A DNA stretch of 25,499 nucleotides, taken from a virus. This document shows positions 7,106 through 24,867 of this stretch, piece by piece. Position 1 is the stretch's first letter. Each line of letters begins with the position of its first letter. Under the pieces are notes generated by a model. It worked only from the letters and a program-made list of their open reading frames with translations, was not told where the DNA came from and ran no database searches. The position numbers and the translations under genes are program-made. The stretch is taken from positions 1 to 25,499 of IMG/VR virus record IMGVR_UViG_3300023192_001116. One strand, 5' to 3'.

Positions 7106-7140
7106 TAAAAAACACCTCCCTTAGTTAAAAGGAAGGTGTT
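7106..7140 (-). terminator. Intrinsic terminator after tape measure gene
   Basis: On the minus strand a 12-base-pair stem with one G-U pair (7129-7140 with 7111-7122) encloses a 6-base loop and is followed by a run of T. The upstream arm overlaps the last codons and stop of the tape measure gene. It probably reduces transcription into the tail-tip genes. Confidence 0.85.
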
Positions 7141-10832: not shown

Positions 10833-11493
10833 TTGAAGTCACCTGCCTTTTTTGCGCCTCTACTCTTTTTAGGTACGCCTTATACTCCATTTCTTCTCTA
10901 ATGGCTTTTGCTTCTGGCAGTTCGTACCGCTCTTTCATTTTCTTGATTCGCTTTCGTTCTTCAGCGTTATGTTTATCTTTCTTAGGTATTTCGCAAGTCC
11001 GATAGTGTATCGCAGTACGCATTGGCGTCTTTTCAGACAGGTTATTAAATAAAGCTAAAAACTCTCCCCATTGCAATATCCCTTGTTGTTCAAATAAATT
11101 GATATTATAGTCATACAAAAAAGACGCAAATATCATTTCTGCGTCTAATGTGAAATTAACAACAGGTATTTCTGGAGATTCTTCTTCATTTAACGGATTT
11201 TCTAACTCTTCCGTCCTCTCATTGGTCTTCTTACCTGACGTTAAATCAATATTCAATTTATCTTTAAACACATCGACGAGAAGTTTTTCCTTTTGTGATG
11301 GATTTAATTGCGCTAATAGCGAATGATCCACAATAATCATATTCAACGCAATGTTTGGTTTCATCCGATCTGGTATATTAACATCGTCAAAAAGCTCCAT
11401 CATTTTCAAAACATTATCGAAGGATAGGTTCAACTCTATTGCTACTCCTGCCCATTCGTAAATGTCCCTGTTTCTATCGGTGAGTTTAAACAT
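10825..11493 (-). CDS. Gp15-like tail assembly protein
   Basis: A 222-residue protein resembling the phage Gp15 family (opening MFKLTDRNRDIYEWAG; WGEFLALFNNL in the middle; Lys/Glu-rich helical C-terminus). Members sit just before the tape measure gene, where the second tail-assembly chaperone is expected, and probably help coat the tape measure during tube assembly. The ATG has an AAGGTGAT site 5 bases upstream. Its end overlaps the tape measure start by 8 bases. In many siphophages this product is made by frameshifting from the preceding gene. Here it has its own good start, and the minus-one frame is closed by a TGA just past the upstream stop, so separate initiation is more likely. Confidence 0.8.
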   Translation of the reverse strand: MFKLTDRNRDIYEWAGVAIELNLSFDNVLKMMELFDDVNIPDRMKPNIALNMIIVDHSLLAQLNPSQKEKLLVDVFKDKLNIDLTSGKKTNERTEELENPLNEEESPEIPVVNFTLDAEMIFASFLYDYNINLFEQQGILQWGEFLALFNNLSEKTPMRTAIHYRTCEIPKKDKHNAEERKRIKKMKERYELPEAKAIREEMEYKAYLKRVEAQKRQVTSNG

Positions 11494-11952: not shown

Positions 11953-11980
11953 GAAAAAGGAGCCGCATTAACGACTCCTT
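11953..11980 (-). terminator. Intrinsic terminator after major tail protein gene
   Basis: On the minus strand a 9-base-pair stem with one G-U pair (11972-11980 with 11957-11965) and a 6-base loop is followed by TTTTTC. It begins 4 bases after the major tail gene and should separate abundant tail tube mRNA from the chaperone genes. Confidence 0.88.
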
Positions 11981-11983
11981 GTT

Positions 11984-12427
11984 TTACAACGTTGGTGTTG
12001 CTTTAGTGAATTTTGGCACGCCATCAAAACTGATTGTGAACTCAATTTCTCCTTTAGCGTTTGCATCTCCGCCAGGAGCTTTAATTTCTGAAATAGTACA
12101 ACGACCTTCCCACTTGTCTCCATTCGGTTCAGTTACTCTAAAATCACTTTTACGAGCGCTCCCTACTTGGTTAATACGTTTAAAAATGAAATCTTGTGCT
12201 TCGTCACCATAGTATCGATGCCCTTCAAATCCATAAGACATCATGAAACCGGTAATATCACGTTCTGCAGCTCCACCACCATCGTAATAATACGTTTCAT
12301 CTGATTCTTCATTATTGTCCGGATCTACCGAAGTAATCCCTTTCGCGATAACCGCATACTTAGCTGTACTCGTTTCTGATACGTTTAACTCAAATTTATA
12401 ACCATGATTCATTAAAAATCCGCCCAA
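11984..12427 (-). CDS. Major tail tube protein
   Basis: A 147-residue beta-rich protein (NHGYKFELNVSETSTAKYA ... EGRCTISEIKAPGGDANAKGE ... FDGVPKFTKATPTL) in the slot after the tail terminator and before the chaperones. It polymerises as hexameric rings around the tape measure. The most likely start is the TTG at 12425-12427, placed 8 bases after an AGGAGG site; the in-frame ATG five codons later is too far from it. A strong terminator follows immediately, consistent with a highly made structural protein. No additional Ig-like C-terminal domain is present, so this is a minimal tube protein. Confidence 0.85.
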   Translation of the reverse strand: MGGFLMNHGYKFELNVSETSTAKYAVIAKGITSVDPDNNEESDETYYYDGGGAAERDITGFMMSYGFEGHRYYGDEAQDFIFKRINQVGSARKSDFRVTEPNGDKWEGRCTISEIKAPGGDANAKGEIEFTISFDGVPKFTKATPTL

Positions 12428-20963: not shown

Positions 20964-20990
20964 ATAAAAAAGCAGCGGATTCGCTACTTT
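20964..20990 (-). terminator. Intrinsic terminator upstream of the packaging genes
   Basis: On the minus strand the stem AAAGTAGCG/CGCTGCTTT (20982-20990 with 20969-20977, one G-U pair) with a 4-base loop is followed by a run of T. It overlaps the stop of the upstream small gene. No strong promoter is apparent between it and the terminase genes, so read-through, or an unrecognised promoter, is needed for late expression. Confidence 0.85.
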
Positions 20991-21193
20991 TACAGAATGA
21001 CTTCGAATTCTTCGTATTCCTCTTTTGAAATGGATTGGAAACTAACTATTCTATAATCTTTGGTGCTGCTATACTTAATTCGTTTATACCATATTGATGG
21101 ATGCTCATTTATAACCATATGTTCCGGAGTCCAACTTATATTTCTTTCAACATCTTCCCACATATAAGAAACAAAATAGAACTTTTCATCCAT
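20990..21193 (-). CDS. Small hypothetical protein
   Basis: A 67-residue acidic protein rich in aromatic residues (MDEKFYFVSYMWEDVERNIS; end SKEEYEEFEVIL). The frame extends 11 codons upstream, but AAAGGAGCGGTAACT places the start at the ATG at 21191-21193. I do not recognise a domain. The WxP-H-x-V pattern and size recall small phage proteins of unknown function from Bacillus. It has its own terminator and sits downstream of a gene-free spacer with nested dyads, so it may be transcribed alone. Confidence 0.75.
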   Translation of the reverse strand: MDEKFYFVSYMWEDVERNISWTPEHMVINEHPSIWYKRIKYSSTKDYRIVSFQSISKEEYEEFEVIL

Positions 21194-21987: not shown

Positions 21988-22161
21988 TCACTCCTTATCT
22001 TTCCTTTCAAGATACTCAGCAAATTTCTTTCTTACAAACTTCAATCGCTCTTCTCTGATTTCTCTTTCCATTTGCTTCTTTCGCTTATCTTTCCTTAACA
22101 ACAAACAAGACACCACCAAGATCACAGCAGCGCCTACGATAATTGCTATTGATTTAATCAT
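21988..22161 (-). CDS. Small single-pass membrane protein
   Basis: Beginning at the ATG at 22159-22161 (MIKSIAIIVGAAVILVVSC), the protein has one N-terminal transmembrane helix (about residues 3-22) followed by a highly charged Lys/Arg/Glu helix to the end (about 57 residues). Other starts lie up to four codons upstream; none has a clear ribosome site, so the exact start is unsure. It overlaps the end of the preceding gene by 8 bases, suggesting coupling. The layout (membrane anchor plus basic cytosolic helix) is common in phage proteins of unknown role. It is followed 5 bases later by another small membrane protein. Confidence 0.7.
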   Translation of the reverse strand: MIKSIAIIVGAAVILVVSCLLLRKDKRKKQMEREIREERLKFVRKKFAEYLERKDKE

Positions 22162-22439: not shown

Positions 22440-22473
22440 CTAGGAACTAACATAATTGATAATCCCTAGTTTA
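22436..22473. promoter_or_regulatory. Inverted repeat, possible operator
   Basis: A perfect 9-base inverted repeat, TAAACTAGG (22436-22444) and CCTAGTTTA (22465-22473), with a 20-base spacer. It lies between the terminator of the RNA-like region and the putative promoter, overlapping the -35 position. No T-run follows on either strand, so a protein-binding site is more likely than a terminator. Confidence 0.5.
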
Positions 22474-22509
22474 CAAAAAACAAAAAGCCATCACCAAAGT
22501 GACAGCTTT
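22474..22509 (-). terminator. Strong intrinsic terminator ending the noncoding region
   Basis: On the minus strand an 11-base-pair stem with two G-U pairs (22499-22509 with 22484-22494) and a 4-base TTTG loop is followed by TTTTTG and TTTTTT. No gene precedes it on this strand for about 890 bases, which implies a noncoding transcript ends here. Confidence 0.9.
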
Positions 22510-23310
22510 CAAGGGGATGGGAGAAAAGAGAGAAAACAAATGGCAAAAGTTTCTCTTAGATCAAGACTGAGTACTCTCAACCTTCTCCAAGCCACCGCAT
22601 CAACTAGTTTGGCTACACGCCCTGTGTTCAGTGACTGGGAGAAGAGCAAGAGCTTCCTATATCTCTTTCAGCACTCATATGTTGCTTCTCTTCTCGTTTA
22701 TACTCCGTAGAGATTGTCCTGTGATTTTAGGGCATCACATACCACATGTCGAATGAGAGCTATGGTGTAACTCTCTTATAAAGGGTTTTTAATTTATATC
22801 AAGACGTATATGTTTCTTCCGACGCCTTGTTTGAACCAATACACTAGAGGGACGGAAGGGGAATGTTTCCGCTGTATTGGCTCAAACAAAGAGTGGAACT
22901 CTTTGCCCTCGTTTTGGTCATTAATAAGAATCGTTAGTAATTACTAATGTACGAGATACGTATACTGTTTTAGATTTTTAGAACGGCATTCATTCAATCA
23001 TGAAAACCATCCCCATTCTTAGAAATCAACATAACAGGAATATTGAATTTTATATCAATATTCAATACAGAAGGTGGATTCTGTACTGATCGATTGATAC
23101 AAATTAGAAACAGCATGACGAGTGCGAGTTATCTCACACCCGCCACACTGGAATATGTCATTATAATTATTCATTGGTCTTTTCGTCTTAACGCGGGTTC
23201 TTACCGCCTTGCCCGCCCTACTATGCGGTATACGTTACCGTGACATTCTCGCATAAGAACGTTTCACTGATAGGTGTACTAATCCTCTTCGATATGCAGT
23301 TGTCAAAGGG
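22484..23310 (-). ncRNA. Candidate large structured noncoding RNA (~0.8 kb)
   Basis: No credible gene exists here on either strand, but there are many stable minus-strand helices: 15-17 bp with one G-U pair (22827-22843 with 22873-22889) enclosing a small hairpin; 10 bp (23063-23072 with 23079-23088); 8 bp (22887-22894 with 22898-22905); 7 bp (23122-23128 with 23133-23139); 7 bp (23243-23249 with 23256-23262); 7 bp (22582-22588 with 22638-22644); and shorter ones at 22590-22614, 22720-22739, 22755-22775, 23193-23216 and 23226-23240. It ends in a strong terminator and starts near a promoter-like region behind the late regulator. Size, phage location and ornateness recall the GOLLD and ROOL classes, but I cannot confirm membership. 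The 5' end is approximate. Confidence 0.7.
23278..23306 (-). promoter_or_regulatory. Possible promoter of the noncoding RNA
   Basis: On the minus strand a perfect TTGACA (23301-23306) stands 17 bases before the weak ATTAGT (23278-23283). An alternative is a TATTAT -10 about 20 bases downstream of the phased TTATC boxes, without a good -35, as for an activated promoter. The two cannot be separated by eye. Confidence 0.4.
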
Positions 23311-23346
23311 CTTGTAAGATAATAATAATTTGAATCGCGCATCTAC

Positions 23347-23387
23347 TTATCCGCTCCTTTATCGTTAATTTATCCGCATTTTATCCG
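23347..23387. promoter_or_regulatory. Four helically phased TTATC(C)G boxes
   Basis: TTATCCG occurs at 23347, 23370 and 23381, and TTATCG at 23359, with starts 12, 11 and 11 bases apart, about one helical turn each. On the minus strand they read CGGATAA. They fill the gap between the DUF3307 gene and the noncoding region, 35-90 bases upstream of its likely start. This suggests a multimeric activator site, possibly for the ArpU-type protein encoded nearby. Confidence 0.6.
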
Positions 23388-23397
23388 TGTTTTTTAA

Positions 23398-23733
23398 TTA
23401 CATATTCTTATAAAATAGGAACACTATGATTTGCAAAATGTGTATCGCTTGATCGATTAACAATCCTGATTTTAATGAATCTAATTTCTTATAGAAGCCT
23501 ACAGGTTTCGCTTTCATGTAATCTGCAACAACGTGAACAACAAACATCCAAGCTACATCAATATAAGTAATGTTATAACCTAAGAAATATGCCGCGATTA
23601 ATACTGTTCCTGTCCATATCCCTGCGTGTGTAGCTAGTACAATATGATTCTTACCTTTCATATTCGCTAAGAAATCTCCTTGTAACGGGTAATCTGCCAA
23701 TAAGTGTGCAAATAACAATACTAAAAAATTCAT
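23398..23733 (-). CDS. DUF3307 family membrane protein
   Basis: A 111-residue integral membrane protein with about four hydrophobic helices. The start MNFLVLLFAHLLADYPLQGDF, with HLLADYPLQ, and the later HVVADYMKAKP are characteristic of the DUF3307 family, whose biochemical role is unknown. Members often occur in phages next to regulators. The ATG has AAAAGGAGAATG upstream and lies 15 bases after the ArpU-type gene. No terminator follows; the next element is the phased box cluster. Confidence 0.85.
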   Translation of the reverse strand: MNFLVLLFAHLLADYPLQGDFLANMKGKNHIVLATHAGIWTGTVLIAAYFLGYNITYIDVAWMFVVHVVADYMKAKPVGFYKKLDSLKSGLLIDQAIHILQIIVFLFYKNM

Positions 23734-23748
23734 ATATCATTCTCCTTT

Positions 23749-24135
23749 TTATATAATCAATAGCGCTTCAGCTAGTGCCATAATCGCATGTCTCTTTTGT
23801 GTATAGAACCAATTATTCTCCATCATCATTTGTGCCTTTACAGCTTTATCGCTCATCAATCCATTATTAAGATACTTCCTTTCAATAATTTCTCTCTGCT
23901 CCGGATCAAGAGCATGTTCTAACGCTCTCTTCATTTGAATGTACTTTATATCCTTTATCTTTTTTGTATTACGTATTTCAACAAAAGGACTACTGATATT
24001 CTCCGCGGCACACTCTTCCTGATTAATCATACGAACTTTTAAAGCTCTATAATTAAGCAATGCCTTTGCAACTTCTCTCTGTATATCTTTGTACTCCTCA
24101 TTCGTGATTTCTGGAAAGAATGCTAATTGCTCCAT
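23749..24135 (-). CDS. arpU: ArpU family late transcription regulator
   Basis: A 128-residue protein (MEQLAFFPEITNEEYKDIQ; ALLNYRALKVRMINQEE; KYIQMKRALEHALDPEQREI; end MALAEALLII) closely matching ArpU-type phage regulators. This family resembles sigma region 4, and members activate late packaging and lysis transcription. The C-terminal helices (about 85-125) form the predicted DNA-binding part. A GGGGG site precedes the ATG. Its position just before the late region fits. The phased boxes 360 bases downstream of its end are candidate targets, which is inference. Confidence 0.88.
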   Translation of the reverse strand: MEQLAFFPEITNEEYKDIQREVAKALLNYRALKVRMINQEECAAENISSPFVEIRNTKKIKDIKYIQMKRALEHALDPEQREIIERKYLNNGLMSDKAVKAQMMMENNWFYTQKRHAIMALAEALLII

Positions 24136-24480: not shown

Positions 24481-24867
24481 TTATTTTCTTACCCAACCTT
24501 TCTGCTTGTCCTTCATAACAACAACTAACTCCTGTTTATAGCGATATTCGAACATTTTCTTCATATACGGAAAGCGATCATTAGCATAGCCTTTGACATC
24601 AATTACTTCCTGTGTTCCATCTTTATAAGTGACGAGGAAATCGGCTGTAAATTTCCAGTCTCTTCGCTTCTTTCGTTTGCCCTCTCGTGTGGTAATATAA
24701 AACCCTTCAAGGAGCAGGTACTGAGGTTGTAGCTCAATCTCAACAACCTCAGGATTACTCTTCAATACCAGGTAATACTCCGCTTCTGTTTTACTATCAA
24801 ACTCAATTCCTAGTGCGACTGTTTTTCTACTATTAATACGGCCTGTCTTCTTTTTATGTTTGAACAA
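24481..24867 (-). CDS. DUF1064 nuclease-like protein
   Basis: A 128-residue basic protein of the DUF1064 phage family. It carries the layout of a PD-(D/E)XK nuclease core: Glu28 in FDSKTEAEY, Asp76 in FTADF and Asp90-x-Lys92 in VIDVKG. The protein may act on branched phage DNA like small Holliday junction resolvases, but activity is inferred from motifs only. The start is a TTG (24865-24867), 7 bases after GTGAGG; no ATG is suitably placed. It follows a 57-residue gene by 16 bases. Confidence 0.85.
   Translation of the reverse strand: MFKHKKKTGRINSRKTVALGIEFDSKTEAEYYLVLKSNPEVVEIELQPQYLLLEGFYITTREGKRKKRRDWKFTADFLVTYKDGTQEVIDVKGYANDRFPYMKKMFEYRYKQELVVVMKDKQKGWVRK

Follow-up and report, generated by a model that had tools for sequence, protein, structure and literature searches.

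A structured RNA of two exchangeable modules behind the probable late promoter of ArpU-type phages

The minus strand of the viral DNA analysed here (IMG/VR record IMGVR_UViG_3300023192_001116, whose 25,499 nt we call the window) encodes a highly folded noncoding RNA whose two modules can be exchanged: a 5' module of ~165-200 nt, proximal to the promoter, and an ornate 3' domain. From sequence, we infer an undescribed, highly structured RNA of ~0.2 to 1 kb that would be the first transcribed in the phage late gene set. In the window it spans ~840 nt (22476-23315, minus strand) from its inferred 5' end to a terminator, as delimited by fold, homologues and covariation; conservation and promoter features make ends at ~23315 (5') and ~22476 (3') likely. 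A first-pass annotation of this DNA had placed a large structured noncoding RNA between an ArpU regulator gene pair and the packaging operon, a proposal that the fold, homologues and covariation bear out, and its span of 22484-23310 is nearly exact against these ends. It missed that the RNA lies immediately behind a probable late promoter, that it is a composite of two modules, and that traits of an antitermination leader occur in its 5' part.

Folded as RNA, the minus strand of 22470-23400 reaches -277.7 kcal/mol (z -7.7), a stability equalled in 0 of 20 shuffles, compared to -232.7 kcal/mol (z -2.9) for the plus strand of the same region. Read from the opposite strand, the helix arms form weaker pairings, and we therefore assign the RNA to the minus strand. 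Scanning for hairpins identified an 18-pair hairpin, CAGUGUGGCGGGUGUGAG-AUAA-CUCGCACUCGUCAUGCUG (23111-23150, minus strand), which includes G-U pairs and is nearly invariant among homologues. The intrinsic terminator expected at the end of the RNA was found at 22483-22510 (minus strand), with TGTTTTTTGT after it. Five terminator-like sites were found compared to 1.1 in shuffles, and unrelated terminators occupy the place of the one at 22483-22510 in relatives.

The region had been described as lacking credible genes, and this extends to its relatives: no open reading frame of the region is conserved among 81 homologous elements. For each of five candidate frames, only 8-12 of the 81 elements leave 90% or more of the length open, so the conserved frames that might have spoken for a coding region were looked for and none was seen; element lengths are spread over all three residues modulo 3. 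Several types do carry short open frames with an RBS-like sequence at the RNA 5' end. We rejected this 5' short ORF as a gene, as it lies in different frames or stops early depending on type while the nucleotides are fixed.

Structure is directly evident in two helices of the 3' domain (22483-23099, minus strand; ~615 nt here), where compensatory changes, which the first-pass annotation had named as a check, occur and are missing from slid and swapped controls. In pair counting, with rows picked for diversity among distinct sequences, helix M1, the first of the domain (23053-23099, minus strand), had 98.3% of cells paired and eight pairs changed on both sides, against two at most in slid controls. 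Helix H (GAGCCAAUACA...UGUAUUGGUUC; 22833-22883, minus strand) was 98.2% paired with 5 of 11 pairs doubly changed, its slid controls being 27-38% paired; taken together, slid controls for the two helices were 27-46% paired with 0-2 doubly changed pairs. Swapping arms between phages weakened both: M1 arms average -21.9 kcal/mol within one phage and -15.8 between phages, the within-phage value being reached in 0 of 2000 permutations, and helix H arms -16.8 versus -12.6 kcal/mol. The same test extended to hairpin G2, which holds a conserved UGAUUGA loop region (22985-23014, minus strand; -5.8 within phage versus -4.0 kcal/mol swapped, difference -1.9; 0 of 2000 permutations). Most shifted windows show nothing, with a largest control difference of -0.8; permutation counts ignore relatedness, and the stronger argument lies in the energy differences and slid controls. 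We used helix-wise tests in place of full-length covariation because variable regions align poorly over the full length, where a phylogeny-aware analysis gave six pairs below E 0.05, two of them consistent with base pairs. The core hairpin and the terminator gave no covariation signal because both hardly vary.

Homologues were found in ~100 contigs by exact-pattern scans of IMG/VR, and 90 distinct cores were left once duplicates were removed, counts that mirror the sampling of sequenced isolates. Among 72,556 plasmid records, searched with the region and also with a short query, one matched. This record is a complete prophage-plasmid of Bacillus paramobilis in which the RNA region has no annotation and is flanked by the ArpU gene on one side and a DUF3908 gene on the other. 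From this one named relative, the contigs would be prophages of the B. cereus group. The prophage-plasmid also encodes two exosporium leader peptide-containing proteins on the opposite strand of its replication gene region (L001:3734-5431). Neither the long nor the short form showed similarity to any of 50,697 GenBank phage records, and 11 pattern matches in genome contigs, a set possibly lacking the B. cereus group, included none that was convincing (best E 0.018). The idea of a new class, one of the options left by the first-pass annotation, is supported by Rfam, in which no family matches the RNA locus of the window or its homologues, a permissive scan returning chance matches only. Two other Rfam hits, to a group II intron in L178 and to SNORA68 in L222, are unrelated to the RNA. 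The RNA is undescribed in the open full texts of the literature, a search that largely excluded subscription journals and preprints.

We examined the place of the RNA in 59 loci collected by the ArpU protein alone and then scanned with R1, a covariance model built from both forms that contains only six base pairs and is mainly a sequence profile. R1 gave strong matches in 38 of the 59, all on the arpU strand and ~120-900 nt downstream of arpU, with four weaker matches at the same spot and no match elsewhere in 346 kb. Many training sequences came from the same contigs, so the match rate is not independent; the position and the lack of other matches are the informative part. Core and 3' domain occur together in 23 loci and the core alone in 15 (L182 being truncated), while in 7 the 3' domain stands behind a different, unrelated 5' module and 14 have neither. 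Because all three arrangements occur, the RNA consists of two exchangeable modules. The 3' domain, present in 30 of the 59 loci, varies from ~450 to 700 nt across relatives.

The core of the 5' module, common to long and short forms, lies at 23150-23244 (minus strand; R1 score 87.4 bits, E 1.3e-15). It contains hairpin Pb (GCGG-UAAGAAC-CCGC; 23193-23207, minus strand), which is invariant or register-shifted across variants and whose UARGAN-type loop has relatives in sister RNA modules, and element Pc (GACGAAAAGACC; 23176-23187, minus strand), swapped in some relatives for a hairpin with a UAAGAU-type loop. A gapped-pattern search identified the short form, ~200 nt with its own terminator, which has in common with the long form only a central motif, Pb as GCGG-UARGAAY-CCGC followed by GGACGARRAGACC. 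L146, L153 and L110 are chimeras. The 5' module of L010, L013, L053 and L056 has two copies of the GGATTAG hairpin close to its 5' end (GGATAGGATTAGAAACCCTAT then AAAGGATTAACACTCC). One contig, 2908933813_000003, carries two differing copies of the short RNA (L135:3128-3156 and L130:2737-2765), and the gene end preceding the L135 copy is unlike arpU.

Just upstream of the RNA, as in an ArpU late regulator system, is a gene for an ArpU-family late transcriptional activator (23749-24135, minus strand; TIGR01637, E 4.1e-12, over the cut-off; PHROG 248, transcriptional activator). TIGR01637 also scores over its cut-off in L132 and under it in L139. Between arpU and the RNA lies a small membrane protein gene (23398-23733, minus strand; PHROG 2470, E 1.4e-27), called DUF3307 in the first-pass annotation; relatives usually have the RNA directly behind arpU. 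Upstream of arpU are a gene for a small protein weakly similar to TnsA-like endonuclease subunits in the window (24481-24867, minus strand; NF033179, below cut-off) and group II intron remains in L178 (1-121 and 635-719).

Four direct repeats with an 11-12 bp period (CGGATAAA / CGGATAAA / CGATAAA / CGGATAAG; 23346-23387, minus strand) form a probable binding array for the late activator, and we take them to be the probable ArpU late promoter, with ArpU predicted to bind the repeats. The exact repeat pair at 11-bp spacing is the sole mismatch-free site in the window, and the array occurs once in a complete 53.5-kb relative. Relatives have two to four direct repeats of the same period directly upstream of the RNA; the repeat sequence varies between phages and the copies agree within each phage. 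Between the repeats and the RNA, an AT-rich, -10-like stretch (TTATTATTAT; 23320-23329, minus strand) closely precedes the inferred start; every variant is AT-rich at this position, immediately ahead of the TACAAG/ACAG at which conservation begins.

Near the inferred 5' end is a boxA-like site, GCCCTTTGACAAC (23299-23311, minus strand), which in the long form reads GCYCUUUGAMAAC. The pattern GYYCTTTGAMAAC, written after seeing the sequence and hence not blind, matches once in the window and 0 times in 100 shuffles, and, of 103 distinct elements, 89 contain CTTTGANA. In Priestia and B. amyloliquefaciens the ribosomal spacers contain GTTCTTTGAAAAC, in agreement with the boxA-like site, and the E. 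coli counterpart in this comparison is GCTCTTTAA. In rrn operons and in lambda, boxA and boxB nucleate antitermination complexes, and B. subtilis conserves the elements (PMC7819879). The site forms one arm of a hairpin in some elements; it is absent from several short forms (L132, L133 and L140 types) and from the most divergent sister RNAs (L191, L192 and L197 types).

In 65 loci, the stretch from the RNA core to the first large gene contains 171 terminator-like sites in the sense and 30 in the antisense direction, or 1.05 versus 0.18 per kb (~6-fold); among the sites counted are the terminator of the RNA itself and, in long forms, perhaps hairpins inside the RNA. Sigma-A-like promoters in the same interval show no sense excess (27 sense, 50 antisense, 47-52 in shuffles), although consensus scans can miss real promoters. 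In the window, sense terminator-like sites inside the late operon lie at 22107-22135, 20967-20991, 11956-11980, 11121-11146 and 7110-7140 (minus strand), one of them just behind the gene at 11984-12427.

In phages of the ArpU/RinA type, which infect Gram-positive bacteria, the activator alone fails to explain how one late promoter serves an operon of more than 20 kb with terminators in front; a conserved RNA where the late operon begins is a testable answer. Given the fixed place of the 5' module downstream of arpU and right behind the repeats, the boxA-like site, the excess of sense terminators without one of promoters, and the precedent of the HK022 put RNA, we favor, with confidence just short of even, a 5' module that acts in cis as an antitermination leader of the phage late operon. 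Its occurrence without the 3' domain, as the common part of the RNA, also supports this reading. ArpU would drive the repeat promoter (~23387-23346) and transcription would start at ~23315. The first ~165 nt (23315-23152), with the boxA-like site and the UARGAN-loop hairpins, would then act on the transcribing polymerase, probably together with Nus factors of the host, and carry it past the terminator of the RNA itself and past others in front of terS and the structural genes. The 3' domain, variable and ~615 nt long here, would be an ornate, optional RNA domain distinct from the 5' module; with the terminator, it would come free as a stable RNA whenever polymerase stops there. Against an antitermination leader, the boxA-like site is not universal, no known antitermination RNA matches by model, and a role in cis leaves the long 3' domain unexplained.

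The put RNA of HK022 is a promoter-proximal phage RNA that by itself lets polymerase ignore terminators before phage genes; its two stem-loops span ~70 nt, it belongs to early operons and it works without a dedicated protein (PMC9378689). Like put, the RNA described here lies just downstream of a probable promoter, has terminators ahead of the next genes and would act in cis, but it differs in size and number of hairpins, and we found no shared sequence. It resembles lambda nut and the boxA-boxB leaders of rrn operons in having a boxA-like site near the start, structured RNA next and a long operon downstream. Unlike in those leaders, the boxA-like site is not in all subtypes, the structured part is far larger, and no N-like protein was identified. 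As at lambda pR', a late promoter would give a short terminated RNA before the late operon (~200 nt in the short form; lambda 6S RNA is 194 nt), but Q acts through a DNA site whereas the conserved element here is an RNA structure. The EAR element (epsC motif, RF01735) is a processive antitermination RNA of Bacilli; its model matched the B. subtilis control and 0 of 6 records of ours. ANTAR target RNAs carry a pair of hairpins, each with a loop of six nucleotides in which A comes first and G fourth (PMC3369931). By eye, the UARGAN loops have G at position 4 but U at position 1, and the other hairpins lack six-base loops.

The RNA may also be free-standing and act in trans in the manner of GOLLD and ROOL, as an abundant late product, perhaps oligomeric and set free at the terminator, with the late genes reached by leakage past it or from other promoters. 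We consider this account on the unlikely side. In its favor are the likeness to these large ornate phage RNAs in size and fold, the compensatory helices of the 3' domain, a terminator kept in place even where its sequence is replaced, and the phage late context, as GOLLD rises during lysis and both GOLLD and ROOL form cages (PMC12286853). The 3' domain, however, is absent from 15 of the 38 core-bearing ArpU loci (L182 being truncated), which leaves ~200 nt, and the RNA always heads the late operon. GOLLD and ROOL are often encoded near tRNA islands (PMC12286853), whereas no tRNA or tmRNA was detected in the 25.5-kb window and the RNA sits at the late promoter. In GOLLD the 3' region is universally conserved and the 5' region less so (PMC12286853); here the pattern is reversed, with a conserved 5' module and a variable or absent 3' domain. 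Membership of either class, considered in the first-pass annotation, finds no support in the window and its homologues from Rfam as a whole or from individual models. The GOLLD model (RF02032) has no match in the window and reaches 9 bits at best (cut-off 150), elsewhere in relatives; the ROOL model (RF03087) matched 0 of 6 records, a weak result by itself as no control genome matched either, and the Rfam scan also returned none. Since the 5' part has antitermination-leader features, a role in cis is at least as likely as a free-standing GOLLD- or ROOL-like RNA, and the 3' domain may still be a separate trans-acting RNA as these are. If it does act in trans, it would join GOLLD and ROOL as one more giant RNA of phages. 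A wider reading, in which the late operons of ArpU phages of Bacilli begin with a superfamily of swappable RNA modules that modify polymerase in cis, some fused to an independent ornate domain of ~0.5-0.7 kb that works in trans after release at the terminator, is speculative and slightly less probable still; if true, these modules would be an RNA counterpart of lambda Q, and one transcript would hold two new RNA classes.

Other accounts fare worse. It is rather improbable that the RNA is a regulated attenuator, switching between termination and read-through on a ligand, a phage protein or a leader-peptide ribosome: the terminator at its end, the 5' short open frames of several types and the overlapping pairings around ACCG in the RNA would suit such a switch, yet the frame shifts or stops early by type, 500-800 nt separate the conserved module from the terminator in long forms, and no pairing that could act as an antiterminator was identified. 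A phi29 pRNA-like packaging RNA would be structured and phage-encoded too, and terS and terL are the nearest major genes, but the size of the present RNA, the swapping of modules, the several small genes in between and the lack of any relation to known pRNA in Rfam make this very improbable. We give hardly any credence to the RNA being a mimic of 23S rRNA around A2058 (ACCCGCG..GGACGAAAAGACC) that titrates a ribosome factor. The short form is identical to Priestia 23S at 21 of 23 positions (score 17 versus at most 14 in 1000 ungapped shuffles), in a comparison picked after seeing the sequence, but shuffles can attain the window's own match (2 of 300, ungapped). We rejected mimicry as the leading idea since the element is exchanged among relatives, those of the L110, L146, L153 and L158 types having an unrelated hairpin in its place. 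The resemblance of ACCCGCG-N3-GACGAAAAGACC (23176-23197, minus strand; L132:1098-1195) to the bacterial 23S macrolide site is probably fortuitous. Equally remote is a locus with no RNA function, either a conserved DNA site such as a recombination hotspot or operator, or the remains of a gene. Mosaic exchange of modules and the adjoining operator repeats would fit such a site, but this reading is largely refuted by the compensatory changes, which are stronger when the minus strand, and not its complement, is read as RNA; the fold excess is strand-specific and frames are not conserved.

As a new large structured class, the RNA comes with natural variants (the short form, swapped 5' modules and swapped terminators) that ease its dissection. 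ArpU loci without an R1 match mostly carry, by eye, other structured-looking RNAs at the same spot. In these sister RNAs a 5' hairpin is accompanied by a UUAUCAA..CGUUACUCGG-like stretch and, in many cases, by a hairpin whose loop is UAAGAG. Further structured-looking RNAs without an Rfam match lie downstream of arpU in L178 (3351-3560), L191, L192, L197, L198, L200, L202, L208, L215 and L220, and sister RNAs of this kind show a possible H-type pseudoknot that would pair GGGG with CCCC and GCGU with ACGU.
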